64,000 nucleotides of DNA from Bradyrhizobium centrolobii (GTDB taxonomy: Bacteria > Pseudomonadota > Alphaproteobacteria > Rhizobiales > Xanthobacteraceae), in the NCBI RefSeq assembly GCF_001641635.1, contig NZ_LUUB01000059.1, positions 1-64,000 on the forward strand. Reading direction: 5' to 3'. A program made the position numbers and the translations under genes. Below are positions 2,110-62,128 of the stretch, piece by piece; the stretch's first letter is position 1; each line of letters starts with the position of its first letter. The notes beneath the pieces are model-generated. The model saw nothing but the letters and a program-made list of their open reading frames with translations, did no database searches and was not told the origin of the DNA.

Positions 2110-2152
2110 ACCTACTGCCGGGTAGGAAAAGTGCCAGCCATTGAGCAACAGG

Positions 2153-3567: not shown

Positions 3568-5459
3568 TGGATACGGATGCTGCGGGTTGCCTCGGCGAGG
3601 CCGTTAGCAAAGATCAATTGCGGTTCATCACCTGTGGCTCGGTCGACGAGGGCAAATCGACGCTGATCGGGCGACTCCTGCATGACAGCAAGATGATCTA
3701 TGAGGACCAGCTACGGGCGCTCGCGCGCGACAGCGCCAAGCACGGCACGACGGGCGAAGACATCGACTTTGCTCTGTTGGTCGACGGCCTCGAAGCTGAA
3801 CGCGAGCAACGTATTACTATCGATGTCGCCTATCGGTTCTTCACCACGCCGCGCCGATCGTTCATGGTCGGCGATACGCCGGGCCACGAACAATATACCC
3901 GCAATATGGCAACCGGCGCCTCCAACGCGCAGCTCGCGATCATCCTGATCGATGCGCGCAAAGGGATTCTGGTGCAAACCAAACGCCATTCGTTCATCTG
4001 CTCACTATTGGGCATCCGGCACGTCCTCCTGGCCGTAAACAAGATTGACCTCGTGGACTACCGAAAAGATGTCTTCGACGGCATCGTGCGCGACTATGTC
4101 GCCTTTGCTTCGGCGCTCGGCTTCAAGTCGATCGTTCCATTCCCGATCTCCGCCAGATACGGCGACAACATCATCTACCGATCCGGCAACACCGATTGGT
4201 ATCATGGCCAGTCTCTGCTGGATTGCCTCGAGACTATCGACATTCAGTCCGAGACGACCGACCTGCCCTTCCGCTTTCCGGTACAGTGGGTGAACCGCCC
4301 CAATCTGGATTTCCGGGGGTATGCGGGCACGATCGCCTCGGGAAGCATCGCGGTTGGCGACGAAATTATCGTGGCAGCATCGGGGCGCAGCTCGCGCGTG
4401 AAGCGAATTGTGACCTATGATGGTGATCTTGCGGCTGCAGAAGCTGGCGACGCAGTAACGATCATGCTCGAAAATGAGATCGATGTCAGCCGCGGCGATG
4501 TCCTCGCAGGTCCAACCCAGCGCCCTACGGTCGCCGACCAGTTTGCCGCTCATCTGATCTGGATGGATGAGGAGCCAATGGTACTGGGCCGCTCCTATGC
4601 ATTTCGGATCGGCACGCAATCGATTGCCTCCGGCAACGTCACGCGCATCAAATACAAGATCGACGTCAATACCGGCGAGCCTCCTCTTGCGGCGACGACG
4701 CTCGGGCTCAATGAATTCGGCTTCTGCCACGTTGCGACCACTCTGCCTGTGAGCTTTGATCCCTATCACGTGAATCGGCGCACCGGGTCCTTCATCGTGA
4801 TCGACCGCTACACCAACCGAACGGTTGGCGCGGGAATGATTGATTTTCCGCTCCGCCGCGCCAGCAACGTTGCCTGGCAACCGCTAACGATCGGCAAGCA
4901 GGAGCGTGCCGGGCTCAAGCAGCAGAAGCCATGCATCATCTGGTTCACCGGGCTTTCGGGCGCCGGCAAGTCGACGATTGCCAATATCGTCGACCAGAAG
5001 CTGTTCGCGATGTCGCATCACACGATGCTGCTGGACGGCGACAACCTCCGTCACGGCCTCAATGGCGATCTCGGCTTCACTGACGCGGATCGGATCGAGA
5101 ACATCCGACGAGCCGGTGAAGTGGCGAAACTGATGCTCGACAGCGGCTTGATGGTCATTTGCTCGTTTATCTCGCCCTACATGACCGAGCGGGACCTGGT
5201 ACGCAAGCTCGTTGGGAAGCGCGAATTCGTCGAGGTCTTTGTGGACACGCCAATAGATGAGTGCGTCCGACGCGATCCAAAGGGACTTTATTCGAGGGCA
5301 AAATCAGGCAAAATCGAGAACTTTACTGGCATCGACGCCCCGTTCGAAGCGCCGCGCGCGCCGGAGGTACACTTGAAGACCTTGGGCCAGCCACCAGAAC
5401 AGTTGGCGGATCAGGTTCTAGATGCGCTTGCCGCAAGAGAGATTATTTCTCTGACATAG
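3567..5459 (+). CDS. nodQ: Bifunctional sulfate adenylyltransferase GTPase / APS kinase, NodQ
   Basis: A CysN-CysC fusion. The N-terminal translation-factor-like GTPase has the P-loop GSVDEGKST (residues 24-32), DTPGHEQY and NKID, and activates the NodP adenylyltransferase. A second P-loop, GLSGAGKST near residue 462, begins the C-terminal APS kinase, which also keeps DGDNLRHGLN. The kinase converts APS to PAPS, the sulfate donor for NodH-type sulfotransferases. The length of 630 residues matches rhizobial NodQ. The start codon overlaps the nodP stop. No nodH is in the window, so the receiving sulfotransferase must lie elsewhere if Nod factor is sulfated. Confidence 0.93.
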   Translation: MDTDAAGCLGEAVSKDQLRFITCGSVDEGKSTLIGRLLHDSKMIYEDQLRALARDSAKHGTTGEDIDFALLVDGLEAEREQRITIDVAYRFFTTPRRSFMVGDTPGHEQYTRNMATGASNAQLAIILIDARKGILVQTKRHSFICSLLGIRHVLLAVNKIDLVDYRKDVFDGIVRDYVAFASALGFKSIVPFPISARYGDNIIYRSGNTDWYHGQSLLDCLETIDIQSETTDLPFRFPVQWVNRPNLDFRGYAGTIASGSIAVGDEIIVAASGRSSRVKRIVTYDGDLAAAEAGDAVTIMLENEIDVSRGDVLAGPTQRPTVADQFAAHLIWMDEEPMVLGRSYAFRIGTQSIASGNVTRIKYKIDVNTGEPPLAATTLGLNEFGFCHVATTLPVSFDPYHVNRRTGSFIVIDRYTNRTVGAGMIDFPLRRASNVAWQPLTIGKQERAGLKQQKPCIIWFTGLSGAGKSTIANIVDQKLFAMSHHTMLLDGDNLRHGLNGDLGFTDADRIENIRRAGEVAKLMLDSGLMVICSFISPYMTERDLVRKLVGKREFVEVFVDTPIDECVRRDPKGLYSRAKSGKIENFTGIDAPFEAPRAPEVHLKTLGQPPEQLADQVLDALAAREIISLT

Positions 5460-6094
5460 CTCAACTAGGGCACCATTCGACCTTGTCGCAAGCTGGACTC
5501 TGGTCACGCAGGTCGTGAATGTCCTCATCCGCCATGCCCCTGCTGCCCGAACCTGGCGGCTTTCGTTCTGGTTTCACGGCTTGACACAGGCCCCTATTCT
5601 AGTTCGCCGGGGATCGACCATTCGTCCTTTCGTGCCGGATCGAACAGTGGCGTCGCGCGCTGCAGGCTGTACCAATGCACCCGGTCCGAACCATTGTTGA
5701 CAGGATTGCGCGAAAATGACCACGGGTGAGCAGGGGAAGCTTCTTTGCCAGCTCAAACAATGTTCGACGATTTTGTTCTATTCAGAGCCGCCGCAACGAA
5801 GCAGACGTCCTTGCTCACTCACTTAGCGCATGCGAGGCCGCTCCTAGTATGCGGAACCTGCGCCGATCATGTCCATGCCTATGCCATCATCCATTGCGAG
5901 GTCGCAGCGGCTGGCGGACCGTCGCTCGCAATGGCGAAGAAACGAGACACGTGACCGGTCAGATTAGCGAGCGGACCTCCGAAAGCCCAGACACAGCCCA
6001 CCGCTTCATAGTCGGCCCAAGAGGTCGTACAACTATATTCAAAGAACGAGTCGTCCGCTAACCGTACAAGGGCACAACCAAGTCTAGAGGTTTT
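5460..6094. other. Intergenic region between nodQ and the acyltransferase
   Basis: About 635 bases with short overlapping frames only. I found no family motif, no second nod box and no clear terminator, so whether the acyltransferase is in the nodPQ transcript or has its own promoter is open. Confidence 0.35.
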
Positions 6095-7207
6095 ATGCTT
6101 TGTCACACAACTCTATCGACGGGGCACGGCTCGCACTCAGCCGGAGCAGACAACCGAGATCTAAGCTTTGATTTTGCTAAAGGCATACTCATTGTCTTGG
6201 TGATCGTTGGACATCTATTGCAATATGTCATCTACCGAAACAATGATTATTGGTATTCGCCGTATTTCAAGTCGATCTACATGTTTCATATGCCTCTGTT
6301 TATGGCGATAAGCGGATATCTGTCTTCGAGAGCTCTCCTGCGAAAATCGCTCATTCGTAGTATCAATGAGCGCGCGATACAATTATTGCTGCCAACGCTG
6401 TTTTGGTGCGCCTTTATGGAGACAGCTAAGGTAGCTGCATTTTCGCCTTCGAACAGTATAACTTACGCAGACATTTTGAAGGATTTTATTGGCTCATACT
6501 GGTTCATATGGGCGGCATTTGCATCTTTCCTTGTCATAAAGGTCCTTCTAACGATTTGCCGTCGTCGATCAATGTGGATCATAGGCATGTCTGCAATTGC
6601 GGTCGCAATCTTGCCCGTCACCTTTTCGATATTGCCCTTGATAAGATACACTTTCCCGTTCTTCTGTCTGGGATTCTTGCTTTTCCAGTCGACCGAATGG
6701 CGAGCGCGCGTTCTCCCACGCAACAAATCTCCCTTGATCTTCTCACTCGCAGCGCTTGCTTTCGCCTGCTTTCTTGTTTGGGGCAAAGAGACTTATGCCT
6801 ACAACAATCTCGTTCTGATACGCGATACAGCATCGGCTGAACAGGTGTTGCTGATGTTCGCAGGCTCTGTGGCGGCCTCTGCGATCGCATTTGAAACGGT
6901 GCTACCGCTCTGGAAACTCAGCTCTTCAAATCGAGTGGCCCGCTTTGTCGCGGTGGAACTTGGGCAGAGCACGCTGCTTCTTTACCTGCTCCAGGGCACC
7001 GTTTTTCGTCTTATGGATTTGGTCCAGTTCGGAGAACTATGGGATCTCTCGACCAGAATCTCGATGGCTGGTGTGCTTGGAGTGGCCATCATTGTCATCG
7101 CGATGACAGTTCGCTGGATTGTCCGCGACCTCGGATGGGTGTCTCGGGTTGTTGCCGGAACGCCGCCACGCTCGGGGCCGCTCAAACCTCAGTCAGTAAC
7201 TAACTAA
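6095..7207 (+). CDS. nolL: NolL/NodX-type Nod-factor O-acetyltransferase (acyltransferase 3 family)
   Basis: The N-terminus DFAKGILIVLVIVGHLLQY with the conserved histidine, then YMFHMPLFMAISGYL, is the signature of membrane acyltransferase 3 proteins; about ten hydrophobic segments follow through residue 355. In rhizobia, proteins of this type and length (370 residues) are NolL, which acetylates the fucose of Nod factors, and NodX. Position after nod-box-driven nodPQ favours a Nod-factor role. An AGAGG sits five bases before the ATG. Base composition is visibly more AT-rich than nodPQ, suggesting a separate acquisition. Assignment to NolL rather than NodX or another polysaccharide acetylase is inference. 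Confidence 0.75.
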   Translation: MLCHTTLSTGHGSHSAGADNRDLSFDFAKGILIVLVIVGHLLQYVIYRNNDYWYSPYFKSIYMFHMPLFMAISGYLSSRALLRKSLIRSINERAIQLLLPTLFWCAFMETAKVAAFSPSNSITYADILKDFIGSYWFIWAAFASFLVIKVLLTICRRRSMWIIGMSAIAVAILPVTFSILPLIRYTFPFFCLGFLLFQSTEWRARVLPRNKSPLIFSLAALAFACFLVWGKETYAYNNLVLIRDTASAEQVLLMFAGSVAASAIAFETVLPLWKLSSSNRVARFVAVELGQSTLLLYLLQGTVFRLMDLVQFGELWDLSTRISMAGVLGVAIIVIAMTVRWIVRDLGWVSRVVAGTPPRSGPLKPQSVTN

Positions 7208-15359: not shown

Positions 15360-15878
15360 TCAGATTTTCGTCTTGTTCCGAGCCACATGATGGCGGAGCC
15401 TACGAAACGCCTCCTTGAGGTCGACGCTCATGCCCCACAATGCTGGTCTCAACGTGAAGAGCTCGACGCTCGCCCGTTCTGTCTTCTCGACTCCACACGG
15501 CATCGGTTCGGGCGCGACAGACACCGGGTCTTTGGTCAGAGCGACCAAAGCCGTCTCAGCCACGCGAGTTTCAGCATCCGGTGGTTTTTCGAAGTCAAGC
15601 GCTATTCTGGCTCGGACGAGCCCTTCGACGACGTCCGAGCCGTGACCGGTTATCTTCGACACACCGACAATGCCGCCAATGGAGCCGCGGGACAACGACT
15701 TGAATTTGATGAGGTCGGCCTCCTCAAGTTGCTCGCAAATGGTACGGATGCGATCGAGACTGACGGGCTCAAGGCCCCCGAGGTTCATTTCGGAGGTAGG
15801 TACCCAGCCGTCATTGCTGTGCCGCAGCCGGTGAAATGCCGAAAGCAGATGCGCTCTAATCCTGGCGTCCGACAACAT
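15360..15878 (-). CDS. Unknown fifth gene of the Wadjet operon, winged-helix-like
   Basis: A 172-residue protein whose first 75 residues have a winged-helix pattern (helix, SLDRIRTICEQLEEADLIKF, then a wing and ITGHG). A flexible proline-rich linker and a basic C-terminal helix (KEAFRRLRHHVARNK) follow. The ATG at 15878 has GGAGGAGG six bases upstream and lies inside the jetD 3' end, overlapping by 23 bases, so translation is probably coupled. Canonical type I Wadjet has four genes; a fifth coupled gene suggests an accessory or regulator. I do not recognise the family. Confidence 0.6.
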   Translation of the reverse strand: MLSDARIRAHLLSAFHRLRHSNDGWVPTSEMNLGGLEPVSLDRIRTICEQLEEADLIKFKSLSRGSIGGIVGVSKITGHGSDVVEGLVRARIALDFEKPPDAETRVAETALVALTKDPVSVAPEPMPCGVEKTERASVELFTLRPALWGMSVDLKEAFRRLRHHVARNKTKI

Positions 15879-17073
15879 TGATTTCCTCCTCCTGGCGCAG
15901 CGCATCTTGGATTTCTGGCTGCGTCGGATCGAGCTCCTCCTGCTCCAGCCAATTGGCGCCCGGGTGCCGAAGATATGCGGCGAGATCAGCGATGGCCGAC
16001 GAACCGACGTCGGAAGGCAGCCTGACCCGGTCGGCTGGCGGCTTCCCTAGTTTCTTGGCGATCGCCACGGACATCAGGTGGGGTCGCAGTTCTCTCGCAA
16101 GCGAACTCTCGATCGTGCGGAATATCCAGACGCCGTCCGGATCGATGTCGGACCAATGGAAGAAGGGGACATCCGCGGGCAGTGAGGCGGCGAGCGCTTT
16201 CAAGGCGCCCTGCGTCGCCAAGGACGGGTATCCTCCGACATAGATCGTTACTCCGGAACGCTGCGGATCCGCCTCGGCAACGTGACGGTGGAAGCTGGCA
16301 AAATTTTCGATTGTCAGGACGTATCGGGGCTGCCCACGAAATCTCAGTCGCGTGGCCTCTGCTGGAGGAATACCGAAATAGAGCGGGGCAGCGGCTGACA
16401 GCTCGGCCATGTCGAAATCCAACCGCCCCGACAGCAACATCGGTGGAGCGAACTTCTCGAGACCCAGCGTTCGTAGCGCATCCCTCGGGCGAGCGGTCGG
16501 CGGAAGCTCCAAGGCTCCGCTCAAAATCCTGACCACCGGTCCTTCCAGTCGCTCCAGTGCTTTGCTGTCCCCGGAAAACCGTCGGGAAAAAGTACGATAG
16601 TCGAGACCCGCATGACGATATTCCAAGATCGCCTTGGCCATGACGAAGGCCGGCCTGAGGCGATCGACATCACCGAGCGAGAACCCTTGCCACTCTCGAC
16701 CGCGAGACCATGCGGCCCGAAGGGTTGCCAGCGATCCTTCGAACTGGACTGGCAGTTCCAGTCCTTGCAACAAACGCCCGGTCGCCTCGTCGGTCAGCTC
16801 ACCGACCGGTCGACGCTTGAGCATCGCGTACAGCAGAGCGGGCTCTTCCAGCCTGACATGCTTGATCTGATCGCTTTTGAGGCCCCGCTCCCGCGTGATC
16901 TTGATAGCCCGCTGCTCCTCCGCCTCGCAAAGCTCCTTCGTAAACTTGTCCATCTGCACGACGTCGACGAACCTGCCATAATCGGGATAGCCGATCGGCC
17001 GTTCCGCTCCTGCCTCGTGACGGTCGAGAAGATCGGCCATCAGCGCGCGTGCGTCGGTGAACCGCCTGGACAT
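15856..17073 (-). CDS. jetD: Wadjet nuclease subunit JetD (DUF3322/DUF2220)
   Basis: JetD is the topoisomerase-VI-like nuclease of Wadjet, cutting circular plasmid DNA after the SMC complex has extruded it. The protein (405 residues) has the N-terminal DUF3322-type helical domain with YRTFSRRFSGDSKALE, and a C-terminal TOPRIM-like DUF2220 domain with YVGGYPSLATQGALK and the acidic motif HWSDIDPDG around residue 307. It lies immediately after jetC with one base between them. Catalytic acidic residues appear intact. Confidence 0.88.
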   Translation of the reverse strand: MSRRFTDARALMADLLDRHEAGAERPIGYPDYGRFVDVVQMDKFTKELCEAEEQRAIKITRERGLKSDQIKHVRLEEPALLYAMLKRRPVGELTDEATGRLLQGLELPVQFEGSLATLRAAWSRGREWQGFSLGDVDRLRPAFVMAKAILEYRHAGLDYRTFSRRFSGDSKALERLEGPVVRILSGALELPPTARPRDALRTLGLEKFAPPMLLSGRLDFDMAELSAAAPLYFGIPPAEATRLRFRGQPRYVLTIENFASFHRHVAEADPQRSGVTIYVGGYPSLATQGALKALAASLPADVPFFHWSDIDPDGVWIFRTIESSLARELRPHLMSVAIAKKLGKPPADRVRLPSDVGSSAIADLAAYLRHPGANWLEQEELDPTQPEIQDALRQEEEINVVGRQD

Positions 17074-17074
17074 C

Positions 17075-20000
17075 CTACTCCGCAGCCATCTTCTTGAGTT
17101 CGTCGTCGGACATCAGATCGGGGTCCATGGCCCGAAGCTCCTTTCGGGCCCGCTCCTTGAGTTCGACGACGCTCGCCCGTGCACTTTCGCCGATGCGATC
17201 CACCTCGACCACCGTATCGATGTGCTCGAGAACCGCGACGCGCTTCTCGTTCGGAGCAGCGATGACGATCTGTAGCCCGAGCTTCTTGTAGAAGCTCATC
17301 ATCTGCCGCTGGTTTTTCCCATCCATCTTGGAGAAGGCTTCGTCGAAAATCGCCACCGACATGCCCGAAGGGCGACCGGCCCCTGACCTCCCGCTTCCAT
17401 AGACCGAGGCAAGCGACGCTCCGATCGCCACGTAGATCGGCACCTGCTGCTCGGCTCCCGAGCCGGTCCCGCGGCGCGTCTCCCATCTCGTCGTCCGGCC
17501 GGACACGATATCTTCCATATGGATTTCGAACGTAAAGAAGTTGCGATAGTCCTCGAAGACGCTGAAGTCCTTGTCGGGATCTTCCAGCAATGCTTCGATT
17601 TCCCGCAGCGTGTCCCGGTGCGGAAATTCTTCCGGCACCTCGTCACCCTTGAAAAGCATGTCGAGCGCTTCCGGAGACGTTTTGCTGATCTCGACGATCT
17701 TCAAGATAGGCTGAAACTCGACCAGACGGGTATGATGGAACGAATATCGTTCGTTGTGGAACGGATGATCGGTCAGGCCGTGATTCATCGCTGAGAGCTC
17801 GCGCTCCATCTTGCTGATCCTTGATGTCAATGCATTGATGAACTCGCCGCGCAGCAGCGTCGCCGCCTTGTCCGCAGCTTCGCGCGCCTGGCGCTCGTAG
17901 CGCCTTAGCTCGTTCTCCTCCATCTCCCGGATCAACAACTCCACCCAAGGCTTGACCTCGCGCAGAGGCTCGCTTTCGGTCCCGACGTTAGAAACCACGC
18001 CAAATTTATCGAAGTAGTGCCCCAAAGCTTGTCGGACGCGTCGTTCAATCCCGATGCGATCCTCATCTGCCCGGCTTGCCGCCTTCGCAGCCTCGATGGC
18101 GATGGCTCGATGGCGGTCCAAGATGAGCTTCGCGGAGAGGGCCTCGAAGCGGGCCCGATAAGAGCTTCGTCCGGAATTGCGGTCATAGAGCACGCGGTAC
18201 TGCCCGTACAAGGACCAAGCGACCTTCATGCCGAGCTTGGAGCCTGGGGTACTGTTGCCGGATTCGATCGTGTGGTTTGCGATATCGGCCGCCCTTGTAT
18301 GCTTTAGGTACTCTCTCTCCTGCGTCGTTCGCTCTTCTAAGCGGCGGCGTTTGAGATCAAGTTGAGCTTGCCTTTTCTTCCTCAGACCGCCATCGCCGGC
18401 GCCGTCCAACGCAGCGATGCGCTGCTCGACCTCCCGACGTTCGAGCGTCGACTTTCGGTATTCTTCGACGATGCCTTTGAATGAAGGCTGCTTGTCGTCG
18501 AATATCCGCCCCAGCTGCACGTGCGCCGTATCGGCAAGCCTCGCCGCGGCGTCCGACCGGGCGCAATCCTCCAAAAGCTGCTCGGCTTGTTCCTTCAGGT
18601 CGTGAAAAGCCTGAATCTGCGCTGCTTTTCCGATCTTGAAATCCGACGGCTCGGCGGCCCGGTGGGTGCGTACGAGCCCGTCATCGTAAAGGCCGTCGAT
18701 CATCAGAGCCCGGCCTGGCTCGTTGAACTGAGCGATCGTCTCGGCCAGCCGAACCGTTCCGTGCCGCCTGATGATGAAGGCAATGGCATCGTAGTCGTCG
18801 GATTTGAAAAGTGTCGGGAACGAACCCGGCCGAGGACCGGGACCGTTGGGGTCCAGCTTGTTCAAGCTCACGAGCGATGCACGGCGGAATTCCCGCCGCC
18901 CGTCCTTGAACAGGGCGGTGGCGCGCGCCATATCGGAACGATCGACGAAGACAGCCTCTCGATCGCGCCCCAAGAGACCTTCGGCCGCCGCTGTCCAAGC
19001 GACATCGGATAGTTCGACCAAATCGCAGAGAACGCGGGGCGACATTCCCGCCAGTCGGAGCTTGCGGCACAAATTCCTGGTGTCGTCGCTCAAATGAACC
19101 GAGCCTTCGCCGCTCGAGTGCAGCCGAAGACGCTCCTCGAGGGAGCGCAGTCGTGCCCTCTCCTCCTCGACCTTGCGTATGAGGTCCCTGCGAGCCTGAT
19201 CGACCCTTTGCAGCGACGTCCGATCGGAAGCGAGCAACCGGGATTCAGCATCTAACAGGAGATTCACAGGTCGCTCGACGGAGGCGTCCTTTGCCGCACG
19301 CGTCAGAGCGGAAATCAACGGAATGAACTCGTCAAACCCAAAGCCCTTCATCGCGCTCAGCGCCTGCAGGGACCGGACGGCATCGAGCCTGCGCTCGAAC
19401 TCGATGGCAGCGCGGTTGATGGCCTGCGTAGCGGATGTCAACGACTGATCGAGCGTCGCACGTCCGGTCTTCGCATCATGCTCGGAGATCGCGATGTCCA
19501 ACCTTCTAATTTCCGCATCAATCCCCTTCAACTCCTCACCGAGGAAATCCATTTCCGATTTGGCCGCATCACGTTTCGCCGATTCCTCGTTGAATTTTGC
19601 CAGCTCGTTCGCGTAGGCGCCGCGTGCCGCGAACCAATCGGCGCGCTTCGATATCCATTGTTCACGGGCCTTTCGCTCATGGGACTCGGCTAGCTCCCCA
19701 AGGATTCCTCGCAATCCGACCAGGGCTTCCAGCTTCTCGCGCATCGTCCGGATCGTGTCGTTGATGTTGCGATAGGTGCGGATCGACTCCCGGAGCTCTC
19801 CCACCTTCATGTTGTTCTTTTCGAGGATGTAGTTGCGCACAAATTCGGTCGCCGTCTGATCGTGATCGAGCGTCATCGCGTTGACGACGGCCTTTTGGAG
19901 CGAATTCGCGTTCTGCTCACCCACCACGGAGGCATGCGGAACCAGCTTACGCATGTATTCCCGAACATAGTCGATCGCCTTGTCGCGGTGGTTGACGAAG

Positions 20001-20515
20001 TTCTCCTGTCCTACTGCCGACACGATCCGACTTCGCACGTTGTCCCAGTCGGCCGGGAACCGCTTACTGTCTCGTACCTCGACGAAATCGTCGGTCGTCA
20101 GTATCTTGCCGGATACCACGAAGCGACCGAGAACGGTCTCGTTCGTCTCGGATCGCCGAGCCTCGATCGCCATGCCGATCGACACCGGAGAGCGTTTTCC
20201 CTCGGTGTCCACAAATCCCAGGCAAATGTAGGTTCGAGCTTGGTCCCGCTTACGCTCATCCTCCCCTAACGCGCCGAGACAGTAGTCCACGACGGTTCGC
20301 TTGGAGGCGCTACGGCTCTTTCCTTTGTCACTCGCTACCGCATTCAGGCGCTGGACGTTCCGGTTTCCGCCAGTCAGGACGACCTGAGCCATGTCGAGTA
20401 TAGTTGATTTTCCGGAACGGTTCTCACCGAATACGCCGGTGTGTCCTGCCAGATCGATGTCTTGGCTATCGAAGAGGTGCCATTGGACCATGGCCACGTG
20501 ACGCAACTCCATCAT
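17075..20515 (-). CDS. jetC: Wadjet SMC-like ATPase JetC
   Basis: A 1146-residue MukB/SMC-like protein. The N-terminal P-loop is GENRSGKST (residues 30-38), and the Walker B with its acidic pair, SVAIFDEAFSKMD, lies near residue 1056. The middle is long charged coiled coil with an interrupting hinge-like region (about residues 480-640). JetC dimers with JetA and JetB form a loop-extruding complex that senses plasmid topology. The ATG overlaps the jetB stop by four bases. Length and domain order are typical of type I systems. Confidence 0.9.
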   Translation of the reverse strand: MMELRHVAMVQWHLFDSQDIDLAGHTGVFGENRSGKSTILDMAQVVLTGGNRNVQRLNAVASDKGKSRSASKRTVVDYCLGALGEDERKRDQARTYICLGFVDTEGKRSPVSIGMAIEARRSETNETVLGRFVVSGKILTTDDFVEVRDSKRFPADWDNVRSRIVSAVGQENFVNHRDKAIDYVREYMRKLVPHASVVGEQNANSLQKAVVNAMTLDHDQTATEFVRNYILEKNNMKVGELRESIRTYRNINDTIRTMREKLEALVGLRGILGELAESHERKAREQWISKRADWFAARGAYANELAKFNEESAKRDAAKSEMDFLGEELKGIDAEIRRLDIAISEHDAKTGRATLDQSLTSATQAINRAAIEFERRLDAVRSLQALSAMKGFGFDEFIPLISALTRAAKDASVERPVNLLLDAESRLLASDRTSLQRVDQARRDLIRKVEEERARLRSLEERLRLHSSGEGSVHLSDDTRNLCRKLRLAGMSPRVLCDLVELSDVAWTAAAEGLLGRDREAVFVDRSDMARATALFKDGRREFRRASLVSLNKLDPNGPGPRPGSFPTLFKSDDYDAIAFIIRRHGTVRLAETIAQFNEPGRALMIDGLYDDGLVRTHRAAEPSDFKIGKAAQIQAFHDLKEQAEQLLEDCARSDAAARLADTAHVQLGRIFDDKQPSFKGIVEEYRKSTLERREVEQRIAALDGAGDGGLRKKRQAQLDLKRRRLEERTTQEREYLKHTRAADIANHTIESGNSTPGSKLGMKVAWSLYGQYRVLYDRNSGRSSYRARFEALSAKLILDRHRAIAIEAAKAASRADEDRIGIERRVRQALGHYFDKFGVVSNVGTESEPLREVKPWVELLIREMEENELRRYERQAREAADKAATLLRGEFINALTSRISKMERELSAMNHGLTDHPFHNERYSFHHTRLVEFQPILKIVEISKTSPEALDMLFKGDEVPEEFPHRDTLREIEALLEDPDKDFSVFEDYRNFFTFEIHMEDIVSGRTTRWETRRGTGSGAEQQVPIYVAIGASLASVYGSGRSGAGRPSGMSVAIFDEAFSKMDGKNQRQMMSFYKKLGLQIVIAAPNEKRVAVLEHIDTVVEVDRIGESARASVVELKERARKELRAMDPDLMSDDELKKMAAE

Positions 20516-21171
20516 GAGTCGTCTCCGTCCATCGACTGTGGGGCGCTTTCTTGCGATCGAACGTAACGTTCGATTCGCTGCAAGGCGTCCGATCCGCTGA
20601 TCAGCTTGATCATGGGGCGTATTGCAACTTCGATGTCCTGCGCGTCGCCGTCGAACTCGCCGAGATCCACCAAGCTGCGCTGAGAGGCTTCCTTCAAAAT
20701 CTCTCGGAACCGCGAAAGCGAAATCGAGCTCGAAGCGTTGGGCTGAACCATGTCCTTGTAGCGGTCGAACAAACTATTCAACGTCGTAACGACTATGGCC
20801 CGGTCTTCGACGGCGCCAACGTTCACCTCGTCCTGCCAGTGGGCGGCCAGCACCAGGATGACGATGGTCTCATCAAGCTTCATGCGGGGCAGCGGCACAT
20901 CGTCACCCAGAGCTGTGATTCCGGCCCATTGCGCTTCGGTGTCCCGATGCACGCGGTACCCGCAACTGTCGAAGAACTCGTCGATGACCGATCTCAACCG
21001 ACCATCCATGATCGCGTTGTAGATCGTGCCCGTCCTTGGATCGCCGGCAAAGACGAACTGGCGCCTCAGGAGGAAGTGCACCGCCTTCCTGAGATCAGCC
21101 GCCTTTTCCGTGCCGAGGGTCCGCTCGATGGCTTCGAATTCACTGAGCATGCCGGCGTCTCGTGGCAGCAT
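20512..21171 (-). CDS. jetB: Wadjet subunit JetB (DUF4194)
   Basis: The 219-residue protein is the MukE-like winged-helix subunit, recognised as DUF4194 from position, length and segments such as LRKAVHFLLRRQFVFAGD and DEFFDSCGYRVHRD. It bridges the JetA kleisin-like subunit and the JetC ATPase. It overlaps jetA by 32 bases at its start and jetC by 4 at its end, consistent with tight stoichiometric co-translation. Confidence 0.85.
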   Translation of the reverse strand: MLPRDAGMLSEFEAIERTLGTEKAADLRKAVHFLLRRQFVFAGDPRTGTIYNAIMDGRLRSVIDEFFDSCGYRVHRDTEAQWAGITALGDDVPLPRMKLDETIVILVLAAHWQDEVNVGAVEDRAIVVTTLNSLFDRYKDMVQPNASSSISLSRFREILKEASQRSLVDLGEFDGDAQDIEVAIRPMIKLISGSDALQRIERYVRSQESAPQSMDGDDS

Positions 21172-22657
21172 GGCGCCTGACGATGAAGTTGGCGCAGCGT
21201 AGCCACTCGCTGTCGTGTGGAGGAAGATCGGAAGCTAACTCGAGCTCGAAGTGAACGCCTAACTCGGGGGGAATTTCATTGGTCAATGCATACCTTCGCG
21301 CAGCGTCAAAAGCCAAGAAATCGTCCACCGTCCTCAGCGTCATGAAACGGGCTTCTCTGGTGCCCGCGGCAGGCACCTGGGTTTCGAGGAAGCGGCGGAC
21401 ATCCTCGGGGCCGGGTGAGATGCGGTCGATGTACAGCGAACGTAGTTTCTTGCGGATCTCGTAGAGCGGATCGCTGGGCCAATCGCCCAGGGGCCGCAAT
21501 TCGATGGGCTTACGTGGCTCGCGGCTCGGCGCATGGTGGAATTCCGACCAGGGGGATCGGAGTTGTTCGAGACTCCACTCAATTGTCGCGTTCGGATGGC
21601 GACCGCGGGCAATGAGGCCGTCGAGCCGACGAACCAGATCGCCCGCTCGGCCCACCAATCCATGGGTGCCACGCTCGGCATACTTTATGGTGTTCCGGAC
21701 GCGCGCTTCCAGTTGGCGACGGAAGACCTCGATCCGTTCGAACATTTCGCCGATATGGCCGAATGTACTCTCAATCGCCAAGAGGTCACCTTCGACGTCG
21801 AGGATCGCTTCGGACATGGATGGAGAGATGCTGTTGGATACATACTCTTCCGACAAGACCTGCATGGTTGAGGGCGTATGGGCGATCTTCCTCGCAAGAT
21901 CGACGATGGTATCCCTGAAACGATACGGATGATTGAATGTCAGGATCGCCTCGAAGTCGCGCAACAGGAGTTGCTCAACGAATTCCTCGAAAAACGCTTC
22001 GAGCCGATCGCCGACCGTCTTCGATTCCATGACCGTACGACGGATCCTCTTGAGATCAGACAATATGGCCCGAAGGCTTTTGGTGAACTGGTCGACCTGG
22101 TTGCGAGCTTCCCGGAGCGCCAGTGCGACTTCCCGTTGTTTCCGGTCGACTACTTGAGGATTGAGTTTCTCGACGGCTTCGAGGTTCACCCGGACGGTGA
22201 CGATGAGCCCACCGAACCGTTGAGAAACGTCCTTGTTCAGACTGGCCAACCTCTGGATCACCAAGAGCGGTCCCATCGACATGTCGACGGTTACGCGCAG
22301 GCCGTATTCCTCCTCTTCCAGCCAGCCCCAAGTGATCAGTCGTTGGTAAAGCTGCCGGGCGATGAGGAGTGCCCGGTCCGCAGTCTCTGTCTTGATCTTG
22401 GCGGAGCGCTTTATGCGCCGGCGCCCAGCTGAAACGATCTCCGGCAGTTGCTCGCCGAAATCGTCATTCTCGCTCCAGAGCGACGGATTGGCCCGCATCA
22501 CATCGTAGATGGTGTGCGTGACTTCCTGCGGGGTTGGGTAAGCGGGAGCGCCCGAAAAGAAGCGCTCGTACAGGTCCAGCAAGATGAGGGAGTAAAGATG
22601 CTTGTGCTCTCGCGAAAACGCCAGAAACGCATCGTCATTGAGGTACCTGAATAACAA
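21140..22657 (-). CDS. jetA: Wadjet kleisin-like subunit JetA (DUF3375)
   Basis: A 505-residue DUF3375-type protein, the MukF-like component, largely helical with an N-terminal winged-helix-like region (YLNDDAFLAFSREHKHLYS) and a charged central coiled coil. The first codon is TTG at 22657, supported by GGGGAG six bases upstream; no ATG gives a better N-terminus. It is the first gene of the jetABCD operon, which runs leftward. The promoter must lie in the 200 bases shared with the divergent AbiEi gene. Confidence 0.85.
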   Translation of the reverse strand: MLFRYLNDDAFLAFSREHKHLYSLILLDLYERFFSGAPAYPTPQEVTHTIYDVMRANPSLWSENDDFGEQLPEIVSAGRRRIKRSAKIKTETADRALLIARQLYQRLITWGWLEEEEYGLRVTVDMSMGPLLVIQRLASLNKDVSQRFGGLIVTVRVNLEAVEKLNPQVVDRKQREVALALREARNQVDQFTKSLRAILSDLKRIRRTVMESKTVGDRLEAFFEEFVEQLLLRDFEAILTFNHPYRFRDTIVDLARKIAHTPSTMQVLSEEYVSNSISPSMSEAILDVEGDLLAIESTFGHIGEMFERIEVFRRQLEARVRNTIKYAERGTHGLVGRAGDLVRRLDGLIARGRHPNATIEWSLEQLRSPWSEFHHAPSREPRKPIELRPLGDWPSDPLYEIRKKLRSLYIDRISPGPEDVRRFLETQVPAAGTREARFMTLRTVDDFLAFDAARRYALTNEIPPELGVHFELELASDLPPHDSEWLRCANFIVRRHAATRRRHAQ

Positions 22658-22800: not shown

Positions 22801-22848
22801 TTGACGGTTTATATTTCTATATATGTTATCATCTCGACGGGATGATAA
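22801..22848 (+). promoter_or_regulatory. Promoter and palindromic operator of the abiEi gene
   Basis: TTGACG (22801-22806) and TGTTAT (22824-22829) are spaced 17 bases apart. A perfect inverted repeat, TTATCATC (22826-22833) and GATGATAA (22841-22848), overlaps the -10 and the likely start site. AbiEi proteins are known to repress their own operons by binding inverted repeats, so this is a plausible autoregulatory operator. Confidence 0.65.
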
Positions 22849-22861
22849 TTTGGTTATTACT

Positions 22862-23677
22862 ATGAAGACCCTAGGATCTCAATCCGCTAAGCTGGTGCAA
22901 ACACTGCATGACGAACGGAAATCGATCTTCACGATCAAGGATGCTGCGCGAATTCTGCAATCGCCGAAGAACGTGGTCTCGAACATGCTCGGAAAGGCGC
23001 AGCAACGAGGTATCGTCACTCGTCTCCAGAGGGGTTTGTACACCCTCGTGCCTGCGGAGCTAGGTAGCGAAACTGTCTACGCTGGCGATCCCCTTGTCGT
23101 TGCGGACCACCTACCTGGGGAGCGCTTGCACTACCTTTCCCATGGCACCGCACTTGCCATTCATGGAATGACGCTACAGCCACGAATTGTGGTGACCGTC
23201 TCAGCCGTTGGTTCCCCCTCCCGCACCATCAACGTCCAGGGCACGGAAATCAGAATCGTCAATATCCGCGAGTCCCAAGTCTTCGGAATCGAAAAGCATT
23301 GGGTCGATCCAGGAGTTTCGGTTCAGGTCAGCGACGTAGAACGGACCATTATCGACTGCCTCCGCCGGCCCGACCTATGCGGAGGGTACGCCGAAGCAGA
23401 CGTCGGAACGTGGATAGTGCGCGATCGCGTGCGAACACAAACACTCGTTGACTACGCACTTCGGCTGAACGTCGGCGCCGTGATCCGACGTTTAGGCTAC
23501 CTGCTGGACTCCTGCCAAATAGGAACCGAAGATGACCGCGCAAGACTGACCGAGAAGCTCTCCGCGACTTACCATCCGTTGGATCCGTCGCTTCCGGCCG
23601 ACGGTCCTCATAGTGCGAAATGGCGGTTGAGACTCAACGTCAGTCGGGAGGAGCTAGAAGCGCAACGAGGGAGCTGA
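22862..23677 (+). CDS. AbiEi-type antitoxin / transcriptional regulator
   Basis: The protein (271 residues from 22862) has an N-terminal winged helix (SIFTIKDAARILQSPKNVVSNML) followed by the AbiEi antitoxin domain with LHYLSHGTALAIHGM and the VSDVERTIIDCLRRPDLCGG motif. In type IV AbiE systems it represses transcription and neutralises the AbiEii nucleotidyltransferase. Start 22862 is preferred because the predicted transcription start and operator cover the earlier in-frame ATG at 22823. The toxin gene downstream is truncated, so this is probably an orphan antitoxin. It is divergent from the Wadjet operon. Confidence 0.8.
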   Translation: MKTLGSQSAKLVQTLHDERKSIFTIKDAARILQSPKNVVSNMLGKAQQRGIVTRLQRGLYTLVPAELGSETVYAGDPLVVADHLPGERLHYLSHGTALAIHGMTLQPRIVVTVSAVGSPSRTINVQGTEIRIVNIRESQVFGIEKHWVDPGVSVQVSDVERTIIDCLRRPDLCGGYAEADVGTWIVRDRVRTQTLVDYALRLNVGAVIRRLGYLLDSCQIGTEDDRARLTEKLSATYHPLDPSLPADGPHSAKWRLRLNVSREELEAQRGS

Positions 23678-41669: not shown

Positions 41670-41745
41670 ATCGGGTAGGAGGAAGCCTTGCGGCTTCCTC
41701 CTCCCACACCACCGTACGTACGGTCCCGTATACGGCGGTTCGTCA
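41670..41745 (-). ncRNA. Group II intron domains V and VI
   Basis: Minus-strand sequence from 41745 reads GCCGTATACGGGACCGTACG then TACGGTGGTG, the characteristic domain V catalytic hairpin. It is followed by a long stem (GGAGGAAGCC with GGCTTCCTCC, 41678-41701) for domain VI and the terminal CTACCCGAT. These are the ribozyme core elements needed for splicing. Confidence 0.75.
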
Positions 41746-42580
41746 GGCACGATTGAGGTGGCGGTGCAGTCTGACGAGGGACGGCAGACCGAGTTGCGCG
41801 AAGAAGGCGGCGCGATAGGCATCGTTCATGTGGCTGGCCCCGGCATTCCACCAGGGGCCGTGGCCGTTGGAGGCCGACCGCCATGCCCGCTCCGGATCGA
41901 GCCCGCGTTGCATCAGGCGCTTGAGGCGTGTCCGTGGCCGCTTCCACTGGCGCCAAAGGACGCAGCGCAATTTGCGCCGCATCCAGCCGTCGAGTTCCTC
42001 GAACACCCCTTTGGCCTCCGCCAGCCGGAAGTATTGCAGCCAGCCGCGCAGGATGGGGGTTAAAGTTCTGACGGTCGATGCCAGGGTTCGTCCACGCCCT
42101 TGGCGCAACGCCATCCTCAGCTTGCTCCGCAACCGCTGCACACTCTTGGCCGCGACCCGCAGGCGCGGTTGTTTGTGGGCGGTCATGGTGTAACCGAGGA
42201 AGGTCCGTACCCAGGGATGGTCAACCGCGCTCTTCTCTGCGTTGACCTTGAGCCGCAGCCGCTCGATCAGGAATCGCGTGATCGACGCCATCACCCGCTC
42301 GCCGGCCCGCCGCGTCCGCACATAGATGTTGCAGTCGTCGGCATAGCGGCAGAAGGCGTGGCCTCGTCGCTCGAGCTCCTTGTCCAGATCGTCGAGCAGG
42401 ATGTTCGACAGCAGCGGTGACAGAGGACCGCCTTGCGGCGTGCCCTCGTTCCGTGCCGTCGTAATCCCACCCGTCATCAATCCAGCCTGCAGGTAGCGGC
42501 GGATCAGCCGCAACACCCGTGGGTCCGCAACCCGGCGCGCCACCCGTGCCATCAGCACGTCATGGTTCACCCGGTCGAAA
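41743..42580 (-). pseudogene. ltrA: Group II intron reverse transcriptase/maturase, C-terminal part
   Basis: Contains the RT active-site motif CRYADDCNIYV, the TPQGGPLSPLLSNILLD block, the maturase X domain (LTPILRGWLQYFRLAEA) and a C-terminal WNAGASHMN segment. The frame begins abruptly with SFDRVNHDVLMA, which directly continues the DLDLEKF ending of the N-terminal half at 45332-45763. The gene has been separated into two parts by insertion of a serine-recombinase element, so no full-length maturase can be made unless the element excises. Confidence 0.9.
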
Positions 42581-42638
42581 GACTACTCGACAGACTGCCC
42601 ACCACCGCGCTCATCATCTCGACGACTATCCCGATCAG

Positions 42639-43013
42639 GTAACCATCGTTCGGTCGCGCCATCCCTTTGAGGGATCTGCGCTTAATGTGCTTGGCTGGTG
42701 TCATCGACGCGGCGAACTTCATCTGACGCTTGTACTGCCCGATGGTACCCGTGCCCTTGTACCGGCCGCGTGGACAGATCTGCCTATCGCACAACATTTA
42801 CCGCGTGCAAGCCCGCAATGCGCTCGAGCGGCATTCCTGGCTTCCCACGCCGAGCTGCTGCACGCCCGGACGATCGTCGACGCTTTGCTGCGGCAATTGG
42901 ATGCCGCGCATACTGTCCTGCCACCGGAATCGGAGGACAGCTATGCAGCAGCTAAGCTTTCTCGACCCACCACCTCAGCGCGGGGCCGTACCCGTATGGG
43001 AGGCCCTCGATAA
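42639..43013 (+). CDS. DUF5372-like small protein of the recombinase element
   Basis: The frame encodes VTIVRSRHPFEGSALNVLGW, TLVLPDGTRALVPAAWTDL and a helical C-terminus, resembling DUF5372 proteins that accompany serine recombinases in mobile elements. There is no ATG, GTG or TTG between the element's left end and the conserved VTIVR segment. The coordinate given is therefore the start of homology-like sequence, and the true start may use a rare codon or the GTG at 42687. Its end overlaps the next small gene. Confidence 0.55.
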   Translation, partial: VTIVRSRHPFEGSALNVLGWCHRRGELHLTLVLPDGTRALVPAAWTDLPIAQHLPRASPQCARAAFLASHAELLHARTIVDALLRQLDAAHTVLPPESEDSYAAAKLSRPTTSARGRTRMGGPR

Positions 43014-43119
43014 AGAGCAGCGCGCACATCTCGTGCTGCGACTCGCCCGACTAATCGCCCGAGCAATCGCCACTGCCGGAGATCACAACGATGAACGAAC
43101 TGAGCAAGATCACCGCTGA
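42943..43119 (+). CDS. 58-residue protein of the recombinase element
   Basis: Starts MQQLSFLDPPPQRG with GGAGG six bases before the ATG and overlaps both neighbours (71 bases with the DUF5372-like gene, 29 with the recombinase). The helix EQRAHLVLRLARLIARAI is strongly amphipathic. Small proteins with a similar QQLSFL start precede recombinases in related elements; the role is unknown. Confidence 0.65.
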   Translation: MQQLSFLDPPPQRGAVPVWEALDKEQRAHLVLRLARLIARAIATAGDHNDERTEQDHR

Positions 43120-45319
43120 GCACCTACGCCGATGCGCAATCGTCTACGTGCGTCAGTCCAGTACGACGCAGGTCGAGCATAATCGCGAGTCCACTGCCCG
43201 TCAGTACGAGTTAGCCGAACGCGCCGCGCGGCTTGGTTGGCGACGCGATCAGGTGAAGGTCATCGATGAGGACCTCGGTATTTCCGGTTCCGGCCTTTCC
43301 GAGCGCACCGGCTTCGCGCGGATGACCGCGGAGGTCGGCCTCGGCCAGGTGGGCATCGTGCTCGGCTTGGAAGTCTCGCGACTAGCGCGCAATAATGCTG
43401 ATTGGTACCGTCTGCTCGATCTATGTGGCCTGACCCACACGCTCATCGGTGATGGAGATGGGATTTATCATCCGGGCTTGTTCAATGACCGCCTGGTGCT
43501 CGGGCTCAAAGGTACGATGTCAGAGGCAGAGCTGCATGTGCTGCGTGCGCGGCTGTTCGGTGGCATCCGCAACAAGGCCGCACGCGGAGAACTGCACCGC
43601 GGGCTGCCGGTGGGTCTGGTACGGGGCGACGCCGACGGGGAGGTGCTGTTGCATCCTGACGAGTCGGTGCAAGCCGCGATCCATGCTGTCTTCGACCGCT
43701 TTGCCGAATTCGGCTCGGCACGACGCGTGTGGCTGTGGTTCCGCTCGCAAGGCCTGCGCTTTCCGCTGCACTCCAACAGCCTTGTCGATCTCCGCTGGGT
43801 CGCCCCCACTTACACAAAGATCCACCAGGTCCTCACCAACCCGTTCTATGCCGGCGTTTATGTGTATGGCCGCACCCAGCAGACATGCTATCTCGATGCG
43901 GGCGGTCGAATCCGAAAGCGCATCAGACAACGCGACCGCGAGCAGTGGCCGGTGTTCATTCGTGACCATCATGCCGGATACATCGATTGGAATACCTTCG
44001 AGGCGAACCAGAAGCGCCTGGCGCAGAACATCCGTCCTCGACCGCACCAGAGCGGGGGTGCCGTGAGAGAAGGCGCAGCACTCCTGCAAGGCCTCGCCGT
44101 ATGCGGACACTGCGGTCGGCGCCTGGCCGTACACTACAGCGGCCGGTTCTCGGCGCCCGGATATCACTGCGCCGGCAAGAACATCGTCAACGGCCGGGGC
44201 GAGTACTGCCTCAACATCGGCGGTGTGCAGATCGATGCGGCTGTCGCCGAAGCGTTCCTTGCGGCTCTCGCGCCCGCAGGCCTGGAAGCCTCGCTCCAGG
44301 CGATCGAGCAATTCGACGCCGATCACGAGACGACTCTCGCGCAGTTCCGTCGCGACGTCGAGCGTGCGCGCTACAACGCGCAGCGCGCCGAGCGACGCTA
44401 TCGCGCCGTGGACCCGGAGAATAGACTCGTCGCGCGTGGACTCGAAGCAGAATGGGAAAGCGCTCTGCTGGAACTGAAGACTGCCGAATCCGAACTCTCG
44501 GACCGCGAACATGCCCGACCGCGCTCGCTTACGCACGAAGAACGCGACGCGATCCTTGCACTCGGTAAAGACCTCAAGCGCATCTGGTTCGCTCCCACGA
44601 CGAGCGATCGCGATCGCAAGGAGTTGCTCCGCACGCTGCTCGACGATGTCACCTTGAGAGTCGAGCGCGATAAATACAACGCTCACCTGACGCTGCGTTG
44701 GCGCGGCGGTCTCTTCAGTGAAGTTAATGTCCCATTGCCGCACTCGCATCCATCGCCGATCCGCACCGCCGACGATACGATCGATCTGCTGCGGCGACTG
44801 GCTGCACATTATCCCGACACCAAGATCGCCGGCATCCTCAATCGCCAAGGCCGTACAACGGCCACAGGACTGTCGTTTACGGCAAATCGTGTGTCGAGCC
44901 TGCGGACGCACTGGGAGATCCCGTGCTTCCAGCCGAGACAGCAAGTGCAGGACGGCGAGTGCATGACGATCGAGAAAGCAGCACGCGCTCTCGGGATCGC
45001 ACCCTCTACTTTGCATCGCTGCCTCAACGATGGCTTCATTGCCGGAGAGCAGATCACACCTGGCGCGCCGTGGCGCATCCGTATCAATGACGAGTTGCGG
45101 TCGCGCTTTGTGGAGAGCGCGCCCGAAGGTTACGTGAAGATGTTCAAGGCCATGAATCTACTCGGCGTCTCGCGGCAAACCATCTTGCGACGTGTAAAGC
45201 GCGGCGAGCTTAAGGCCGTTCACGTCTATCGCGGACGGGCAAAAGGCATACGAATTCAAGTACCTGCAGTTGCTCCGGACCTCTTCGACCCTCTCAAAAA
45301 AACTGAAGGTGTAGTATGA
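43091..45319 (+). CDS. Large serine recombinase
   Basis: A 742-residue recombinase. The N-terminal resolvase domain has the nucleophile in YVRQSSTTQ, followed by the SRLARNNADWYRLLDLC helix. The recombinase domain is next, then a zinc ribbon CGHCGRRL...YHCAG, a coiled coil rich in R/E, and an unusual C-terminal extension with two helix-turn-helix segments (TIEKAARALGIAPSTLHRC, NLLGVSRQTILRRVKRGEL). It catalyses insertion and probably excision of its element through a 2-bp core. It ends 10 bases before the right boundary, so the attachment site abuts the gene. Confidence 0.93.
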   Translation: MNELSKITAEHLRRCAIVYVRQSSTTQVEHNRESTARQYELAERAARLGWRRDQVKVIDEDLGISGSGLSERTGFARMTAEVGLGQVGIVLGLEVSRLARNNADWYRLLDLCGLTHTLIGDGDGIYHPGLFNDRLVLGLKGTMSEAELHVLRARLFGGIRNKAARGELHRGLPVGLVRGDADGEVLLHPDESVQAAIHAVFDRFAEFGSARRVWLWFRSQGLRFPLHSNSLVDLRWVAPTYTKIHQVLTNPFYAGVYVYGRTQQTCYLDAGGRIRKRIRQRDREQWPVFIRDHHAGYIDWNTFEANQKRLAQNIRPRPHQSGGAVREGAALLQGLAVCGHCGRRLAVHYSGRFSAPGYHCAGKNIVNGRGEYCLNIGGVQIDAAVAEAFLAALAPAGLEASLQAIEQFDADHETTLAQFRRDVERARYNAQRAERRYRAVDPENRLVARGLEAEWESALLELKTAESELSDREHARPRSLTHEERDAILALGKDLKRIWFAPTTSDRDRKELLRTLLDDVTLRVERDKYNAHLTLRWRGGLFSEVNVPLPHSHPSPIRTADDTIDLLRRLAAHYPDTKIAGILNRQGRTTATGLSFTANRVSSLRTHWEIPCFQPRQQVQDGECMTIEKAARALGIAPSTLHRCLNDGFIAGEQITPGAPWRIRINDELRSRFVESAPEGYVKMFKAMNLLGVSRQTILRRVKRGELKAVHVYRGRAKGIRIQVPAVAPDLFDPLKKTEGVV

Positions 45320-45331
45320 CGCAACATCCAA

Positions 45332-45763
45332 GAACTTCTCCAGATCGAGGTCGACGACGAAGCGCCGACCCTCGGCCACGTGCGCCCGCGCGGCAAGTAC
45401 CGCATCGTGCGCGCTGCGCCCCGGACGGAAGCCGTACGAAGCCTTGGAGAAGCCTAGATCGAACAGCGGCATCAGCACCTGATGCATCGCCTGCTGGATC
45501 AGCCGGTCCATCACCGTCGGGATGCCCAGTTGGCGCATCCCTCCGCCGGGCTTGGGGATTTCCACCCCGCGCACCGGCTGCGGCCAGTAGCGGCCTTCCA
45601 GCAGTTCTTCCCTGATGCGCGGCCAATGCTCCTTCAGATACGGCTGCAACTGCTCCACGGTCATCCGATCGATGCCCGCGGCGCCCTTGTTCGCCATGAC
45701 CCGATGGTAGGCCGCCATCATGTTATCTCGGCTGACGATCTTCTCCATCAGCCGCACTTCCAT
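45332..45763 (-). pseudogene. ltrA: Group II intron reverse transcriptase/maturase, N-terminal part
   Basis: Begins MEVRLMEKIVSRDNMMAAY and contains NKGAAGIDRMTVEQL, the RT1 block GGMRQLGIPTVMDRLIQQA and FSKASYGFRPGRSAHDAV, ending at FVVDLDLEKF where the recombinase element interrupts it. Beyond the junction the frame runs into element sequence for about 58 codons before a stop. The C-terminal half is at 41743-42580. Confidence 0.9.
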
Positions 45764-46360
45764 CTCCGGAAGGAAGGTTGCGGTCTTGCCGTGGTGTTTG
45801 ATGCACCCGTCTCCTGCTCTGGCGGCTTCCGGCCGCTGCCCTCGGAGCGGGCATGACGCATCTCAGCATCATCGTCTGCATCTGCTATCACCATCGACAG
45901 ACCGGCCTCCTCCGGTACTCGACGTTCGGCCCTTCGCCGGCTTGGTGCTGCCGGCTACTACAGCCTCTGCTGACTTCTGCCGCCCCGTCCCGACGTCTTG
46001 CGACGCCGGTAGCACACCCGTTGCCAGGGGCAGGACGACAGACCTCCCAGGGTTAGTCGCGTGACCTTCGTGCCATATACCTGTCGCATCTACGGCCGCA
46101 CCCTCCGGGTGACATCGGGCTTCGGGAATTTGTGCTCCCTCGCCCGGATGCGGACGCCTCTTATGCGCTGGCTGTTCGTCAGGCCGGCACTTTGCTTACA
46201 GCTTCCTTCAGACCCCGCCTCACGACGACGCCCTTGCTGTTCGGCTAACGGTTCCCATCACCAGGGTCCGTAGAGGACTCTCACCTCCAAGTCATCGGCC
46301 AGACACCACTCCGGCCAAATCGCGCCAGTCACGGCGCTCCGCGCCATGCCTGGCGCACAC

Positions 46361-46390
46361 AAAGAAAGGCCCCGAACGAGTTCGGATCCT
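46361..46390 (-). terminator. Intrinsic terminator of hicAB and intron target
   Basis: On the minus strand GGATCCGAAC, loop TC, GTTCGGGGCC then TTTCTTT forms a G/C-rich hairpin followed by a U-tract six bases after the hicB stop codon. The group II intron begins two bases beyond the U-tract, which is exactly how class C introns choose sites. Confidence 0.8.
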
Positions 46391-46395
46391 TGATA

Positions 46396-46794
46396 TTAGG
46401 CGGCTTCTGCTATGAGCCTCTTCGCCGCTTGAGTTAGAAGGCCCGATCTAGTGAAGCCGTGCGCTTCAGCGTACTTGTCGATTTGATCCAGAACGTCCTC
46501 AGGAAGAGTGACATTCACGCGTATAGCCTTTGGCTGTTCGGTTTTGACCGACACCAAAATAGCTACCCCCGTCCGGTTATCAGCATCGGCCATAACGTCC
46601 TCTAGAGCAGAGGGCTCCGGAATGGCTTCTCCATCTTCAGCAAGACCCTCGATATGAAGGGTGAGGGCTTCCTCTGCCATAGCACGAGCGTCATCAAGGC
46701 TTTTGCCAGCAGTGATCACTCCGGGGAAGTCTGGAAATGCGACGCCGAAATCGCTGTCGGCATCCTTATGGATAAGACCAATATAGTTACGCAT
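46396..46794 (-). CDS. hicB: HicB antitoxin
   Basis: A 132-residue antitoxin with the partially degraded RNase-H-like HicB fold at its N-terminus (YIGLIHKDADSDFGVAFPDFPG) and a ribbon-helix-helix DNA-binding end (IRVNVTLPEDVLDQIDKYA). It neutralises HicA and represses the operon. It lies five bases after hicA and is followed directly by an intrinsic terminator. Confidence 0.92.
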   Translation of the reverse strand: MRNYIGLIHKDADSDFGVAFPDFPGVITAGKSLDDARAMAEEALTLHIEGLAEDGEAIPEPSALEDVMADADNRTGVAILVSVKTEQPKAIRVNVTLPEDVLDQIDKYAEAHGFTRSGLLTQAAKRLIAEAA

Positions 46795-46799
46795 GGCTC

Positions 46800-46988
46800 T
46801 TACCTCAGTTTGAGACCTGACTGCTTTTCGATACTCTTAAGTGTCCCGATCGGGACATCCCGTTCGGGGTGCGGAACAGTTACGCGGCCCTTTTTGGATG
46901 GATGTTTGAATTGCACATGGCTGCCTTTCCGGGCCACCTCAAACCATCCATCCCCTTGAAGGGCCGAGATAATTTCCCGGCTTTTCAT
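46800..46988 (-). CDS. hicA: HicA mRNA interferase toxin
   Basis: A 62-residue double-stranded-RNA-binding-fold RNase that cleaves mRNAs independently of ribosomes. The catalytic histidine is in RKGSHVQFKHP and the C-terminus keeps IPIGTLKSI-like VPIGTLKSIEKQ. Toxin-first order is typical for hicAB. The ATG directly abuts a palindromic operator and lies only about eight bases from the predicted -10, so the mRNA may be leaderless. Confidence 0.92.
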   Translation of the reverse strand: MKSREIISALQGDGWFEVARKGSHVQFKHPSKKGRVTVPHPERDVPIGTLKSIEKQSGLKLR

Positions 46989-61878: not shown

Positions 61879-61941
61879 TGCCACATCTGTGGACCAAGAA
61901 AGCCAAGCTTGACGGCTTGGTGTATCGCTAGCAATTTTGGG

Positions 61942-62128
61942 ATGAGCGGGAGAGACCGTTTCTGCTTCAGGACAGGAACGGCGCCGACGGAGCAACCACC
62001 CCGGAAACTCTCAGGCAAAAGTACCGCTTTTTTCGTACTTGAACTCTGAAAGGCAGGACGGCAGTTCTGCGCCGATGGTGAAAGTCGCGGCCCAAATGAG
62101 TGGGCGGCGATGAAGCTCTCAGGCCAAT
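61942..62128 (+). ncRNA. Tandem glycine riboswitch
   Basis: Aptamer 1 shows GAGCGGGAGAGACCG, GGCGCCGACGGAGCAACC and CCGGAAACTCTCAGGCAAAA. After a short linker, aptamer 2 shows GCGCCGATGGTGAAAGTCG and GATGAAGCTCTCAGGC. These are the conserved cores of gcvT-type glycine aptamers in the usual tandem arrangement. It lies directly upstream of a DadA-type oxidase instead of the glycine-cleavage operon. Confidence 0.9.

Follow-up and report, generated by a model that had tools for sequence, protein, structure and literature searches.

A small mobile element of Bradyrhizobium centrolobii splits the reverse transcriptase (RT) gene of a group II intron, and we consider it highly probable (roughly 0.88) that its large serine recombinase uses as its attachment site attB the stretch of DNA that codes for motif A in group II intron RTs, the motif that holds a catalytic aspartate of these enzymes. 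The element lies on the forward strand at 42578..45331 of the window, by which we mean the whole stretch of 64,000 nucleotides that was analysed. The target was not hit by chance: 49 of the 54 close relatives (at least 57% identity) that could be placed are inserted in group II RTs at the same base and in antisense orientation.

Borders, genes and host intron

The preliminary description had proposed that a serine-recombinase element with a 2-bp AA core splits a group II intron RT, and this is borne out by the junctions and by an empty site. The core dinucleotides are located at 42578..42579 (attL, junction reading cccggtcgAA/agactac) and 45330..45331 (attR, caacatccAA/gaacttc), with 2750 bp between them and a net insertion of 2752 bp, and joining the flanks yields the expected open RT frame reading EKFFDRVNHD. 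The empty site, L101, is an uninterrupted intron copy in another genome of the same genus as the window, which aligns to the joined flanks with 93.5% identity over 1953 bp and without a gap at the junction. This alignment confirms the earlier claims that the element is defined to the base and that there is no target duplication beyond the 2 bp; the loci L004, L005 and L007, whose match to the window is confined to 42574-45331, agree with the borders. The arms at both ends are alike and lie in inverted orientation around the core: the left arm (42580..42603, forward strand), in reverse complement GGTGGGCAGTCTGTCGAGTAGTCT, is similar to the right arm GGTGTAGTATGACGCAACATCC (45308..45329, forward strand), which overlaps the stop codon of the recombinase gene. 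The relatives were also checked for differing ends. These ends are conserved, and AA was found at every placed end in 54 relatives, diverged members included, using an end-finding matrix that was itself built from AA seeds. The genome of the window contains one full copy of the element.

The element had been credited with three genes, of which the recombinase is certain and the two small frames are shown in part. The recombinase gene (43091..45319, forward strand) encodes 742 amino acids with an N-terminal Resolvase domain (PF00239, 57.8 bits), a Recombinase domain (PF07508, 66.5 bits) followed by a zinc beta ribbon (PF13408, 30.7 bits), and a C-terminal HTH_17 domain; the protein also scores above an excisionase-family cut-off (29.9 versus 28.8 bits). 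An alignment of 34 sequences, 26 from close and 8 from distant relatives, shows no variation at R21, Q22 and S23, the last of which we take to be the catalytic serine, at R97 and R100, or at the zinc-ribbon cysteines C338, C341, C360 and C373. Among solved structures, YokA-type recombinases are nearest in sequence, with a weak match (E 1e-4). Judged by the features tested in its sequence, namely the Resolvase domain, the Recombinase domain with zinc ribbon and the 2-bp core without longer duplication, the enzyme is assigned to the large serine recombinases. ORF2 (42943..43119, forward strand, 58 amino acids) overlaps the start of the recombinase gene, and small hypothetical genes are annotated at its place in several plasmid relatives, an agreement in position. 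ORF1 (42582..43013, forward strand, start codon unclear) is a weakly DUF5372-like frame with 17.7 bits against a cut-off of 25, a value that its counterpart in the relative L010 reaches exactly (25.0 bits).

Based on the alignment to the uninterrupted L101, the interrupted intron extends over 41670..46371 on the reverse strand, on which all of its parts are encoded. The N-terminal half of the RT, ending in ...DLDLEKF, is located at 45332..45763 and matches RVT_1, while the C-terminal half of the RT/maturase, starting with FDRVNHD..., is located at 41743..42579 and matches RVT_1 and GIIM; against TIGR04416 the halves score 178 and 217 bits. The RT/maturase frame is accompanied on both sides by intron RNA domains, as in a group II intron, with model matches to group-II-D1D4-3 (46056..46229), group-II-D1D4-1 (45929..46012) and the catalytic domain RF00029 (41670..41740). 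A HicB/HicA toxin-antitoxin pair (window 46396-46988) directly adjoins the 5' end of the intron. The window's own genome shows 25 RT matches, two of which are the split halves. In at least 14 further RT copies, which belong to four types and of which three are cut off by contig ends, motif A is uninterrupted and matches 10 or 11 of 11 key positions. The group II RTs of this genome (G000) include equal-score sets of 4, 4 and 6, located on contigs C14, C40, C41, C44, C45, C47, C57, C69, C74, C79, C85, C88, C91 and C93. These sets are probably identical copies and as such a sign of recent intron spread.

Reverse-transcriptase motif A as the probable target

The relatives were sampled with this recombinase as the seed. 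Scanning a single genome for each species yielded 42 loci, 40 with at least 57% identity and two (L039, L041) near 40%. The 40 loci, the window, L062, 13 plasmid records (taken from 27 records with at least 60% identity) and L180 form the set of 56 close relatives. At least one end was placed in 54 of them and none in L034 and L044. Before L180 was added, 48 of 55 were RT insertions, 36 with both ends placed, 3 with only the left and 9 with only the right, and the rest were five insertions elsewhere and two unplaced loci; L180 raises the RT count to 49. In the set with both ends placed, 35 of 36 have RT on both sides, and L038 has RT on the left only. Motif A reads D-[IL]-x-x-[FYCL]-F-D, apart from rare variants, and the core coincides with the TT of its second aromatic codon, so that the insertion breaks the RT between D-[IL]-x-x-F and F-D. 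All ten C-terminal halves that were tested match RVT_1; GIIM is matched by seven of the ten, one below the cut-off.

The nearest copies of the element are found in Bradyrhizobium records, and named isolates with RT insertions belong to the Pseudomonadota only. Metagenome bins add Desulfobulbaceae, Desulfobacula, Syntrophaceae, Acidobacteria, Chloroflexi, BD2-11, Phycisphaerae and an Actinophytocola as hosts. Because the evidence from outside the Pseudomonadota consists of such bins, the spread over phyla is provisional. Under strict thresholds the clade is present in 2 of 398 genomes of a phylum sample, the genome of the window included, and no relative of the element was found in the viral contigs searched.

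Across 47 distinct RT sites, conservation tracks the coding of motif A, with averages of 0.93, 1.28 and 0.52 bits at codon positions 1, 2 and 3. For comparison we used 37 untargeted RT sites, what remained of a background set of 39 after two low-scoring sites had been removed, and none of 248 Fisher tests survived correction (smallest p 0.007). A base preference beyond motif A coding, which had been considered as a candidate, is thus without support in these comparisons. Targeted sites were indistinguishable from untargeted motif A DNA, and the tests single out no particular bases as those that the recombinase reads.

The shared position and orientation of the RT insertions, together with the one RT site that L031 and L033 have in common, could be explained by a single ancient insertion that was inherited together with the intron. 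Seven Bradyrhizobium elements, however, show 96.9-100% DNA identity (for L064 over a compared length of only 1156 bp), whereas the identity between the N-terminal halves of their RTs is 30-47% for 19 of the 21 pairs and 63% and 81% for the remaining two. We quote N-terminal halves, as truncated or frameshifted pieces depress the C-half identities of L006 and L037 and also the row of L008. Moreover, L004 and L005, which do not differ over 2752 bp, lie in one chromosome record in RTs that are 32% and 33% alike, and the targeted introns span four Rfam models (D1D4-2, -3, -4 and -6). With element identity far above RT identity, common descent of the insertion was rejected, and we regard it as the least probable account of the data. 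Because near-identical elements sit in very different RTs, the DNA of motif A is best understood as the attachment site of the clade.

Five of the 54 placed insertions lie outside RT motif A (L012, L026, L027, L028 and L029). Such a scatter would be expected if the recombinase were multi-targeting, its core loose and its landing in a maturase a matter of chance, and multi-targeting clades of serine recombinases have been described (PMC10083194). Three of the five sites have a joined frame that is open: an AAA ATPase gene (L012, 6 of 11 key positions), a pectate-lyase-like gene (L026, 7 of 11) and a coiled-coil frame (L029, 9 of 11). The L028 site matches 7 of 11 positions and its flanks do not join cleanly, and the L027 site (1 of 11) has no likeness to motif A. 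Random TT sites match on average 2.7 of 11 positions; 3.9% of them reach 6, 1.2% reach 7 and 0.1% reach 9. A quick tree was built from 79 rows, 75 of them different (a few duplicate a locus; L095, for instance, is the window). Its distant part contains several long branches, and the close relatives group in a single clade with 100% SH-aLRT support. The off-site cases are single scattered tips of this tree, and the recombinases of L027 and L029 are nearly identical to that of L030, which sits in an RT. Target labels change 17 times on the tree compared to 34.6 times after shuffling, a value reached in none of 200 shuffles. A single clade with many unrelated target genes, the mark of multi-targeting, was not found; 49 of 54 insertions at one base of one gene family make such a loose specificity very improbable. 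L009, L028 and L038 each have two flanks that derive from different RTs or genes, and those of L009 resemble different RT families. It looks as though crossovers at copies of the element had produced chimeric introns.

The most economical account is that of a classical serine integrase with attP in the element and attB in motif A. In the cycle expected of it, the element would leave its site as a circle carrying attP (...GGTGTAGTATGACGCAACATCC-AA-AGACTACTCGACAGACTGCCCACC...). The recombinase would pair attP with a motif A site, and strand exchange would occur at the shared 2-bp AA (TT in the sense of the RT). Integration would leave the element antisense in a broken RT, which precise excision would restore. 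We infer that the recombinase alone sets the target, and any directionality factor would likewise be an inferred one. The location of the element inside an intron, with RNA domains on both sides, could also suggest that it was moved by retrohoming of the intron and not by its own recombinase. Such hitchhiking is extremely unlikely, as the element disrupts the RT on which the intron would depend; and because its copies lie in unlike introns, it must itself move.

The restored frame could further point to a regulatory switch, in which programmed excision reconstitutes the RT as in the fdxN element of cyanobacteria. That element resembles the one described here in that a gene is interrupted by a serine-recombinase element, and XisF is the best match of our recombinase among curated families. 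The match reaches only 53.3 bits against a family cut-off of 375 bits, however, and the interrupted gene here belongs to a retroelement. The genome retains the at least 14 RTs with uninterrupted motif A mentioned above, in some relatives (L009, L036 and L037) the element is broken or nested, and there is no sign of regulation. A programmed switch therefore appears quite unlikely, and insertion by a motif A-specific recombinase remains our preferred reading.

Distant relatives and an unrelated element in reverse transcriptases

Beyond the RT clade we considered 32 distant loci with 33-46% identity (L039, L041, 15 and 7 loci from further scans, and eight plasmids). By reading the junctions, 18 of them were assigned a target and 14 were left without assignment. 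Both flanks were read for L189-L193 and L009; L054 and L060 have TnpB matches on both sides, and the other assignments depend mainly on one flank. Seven loci target IS66 TnpC, several of them right after NNxAERxLR, and three target IS66 TnpB. Four lie in IstB, two in the P-loop and two at WHxxIGxP in opposite orientations. One is located in IstA near DKAKxE and one (L010) in an RT at GIPTV, and two (L009 and L041/L008) target the recombinase gene of the RT clade itself. Several of these gene names, as well as the catalytic status of the motifs, are presumed by us. IS21 or IS66 genes are annotated beside six of the eight plasmid loci, and an IS21 helper gene is present in the L194 stretch. These two distant elements split the clade recombinase at two conserved positions, LGLKGTMSE (overlap AA) and DGIYHP (overlap TA), which amounts to three-level nesting (L009 at 1059-6423, and L041 with L008).

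These targets suggest, with somewhat better than even odds in our judgement, a widespread superfamily of small serine-recombinase elements that are specialised on conserved, often catalytic, motif codons of the enzymes of other mobile elements, with one motif per clade (RT motif A, the IstB P-loop, the Glu region of IstA, IS66 TnpC/TnpB and serine recombinases). If this is true, such sites would be abundant and not needed by the cell, the targeted element could hardly lose them by mutation, and every insertion would disable its host element.

An unrelated 2.2-kb serine-recombinase element splits four RTs (L127, L128, L129 and L130) at GTPQG in two genomes of the window's genus. It is similar to our element in that it splits group II RTs at a conserved motif, but it inserts in both orientations, and a C-terminal HTH match was not found in its recombinase. 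RT matches in the genome G035 end at profile positions similar to the GTPQG splits.

Relation to known systems and other genes of the window

The large serine recombinases include phage integrases and TndX/TnpX-type transposases. Our element shares with them the domain order, the invariant RQS, the 2-bp core without longer duplication and the inverted arms. It differs in the additional C-terminal HTH_17 domain, in its size of 2.75 kb with almost no cargo and in its target, the motif A codons of another mobile element's RT. This target is what is new: conserved active-site codons of another mobile element, kept by a whole clade. In the open-licence papers searched, we found no account of recombinase elements in RT motif A. 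Diverse large serine recombinases have been described to converge on conserved coding sites such as those in magnesium chelatase and prolyl isomerase (PMC10083194). The targets named in the main text of that study are cellular genes, whereas here the RT of a mobile element is used, and the term 'reverse transcriptase' occurs zero times in that main text.

The pattern suggests that a DNA integrase tracks a protein motif by way of codon degeneracy: amino-acid constraint on the enzyme of another parasite keeps the target in place, and variation is freer at third codon positions. Dozens of natural enzyme-site pairs make the target evolution of large serine recombinases, enzymes that attract interest in genome engineering, directly testable. 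The data further suggest a layer of retroelement parasites that would silence group II introns, and perhaps IS elements, copy by copy.

The window contains several other features apart from the element. Wadjet-type defence genes are located at 15856-22657, with matches to JetD, JetC and JetA of 507, 1549 and 727 bits, and are adjoined by an AbiEi-like gene (22823-23677). A HipA-type gene at 33694-34989 matches HipA_C and Couple_hipA. PAPS-reductase-type and GTPase/APS-kinase genes, which we assume to be NodP/NodQ-like, lie at 2578-5459 and are followed by an acyltransferase gene at 6095-7207. A glycine riboswitch (61937-62036) was detected upstream of an ORF at 62134 that presumably encodes a D-amino-acid dehydrogenase.
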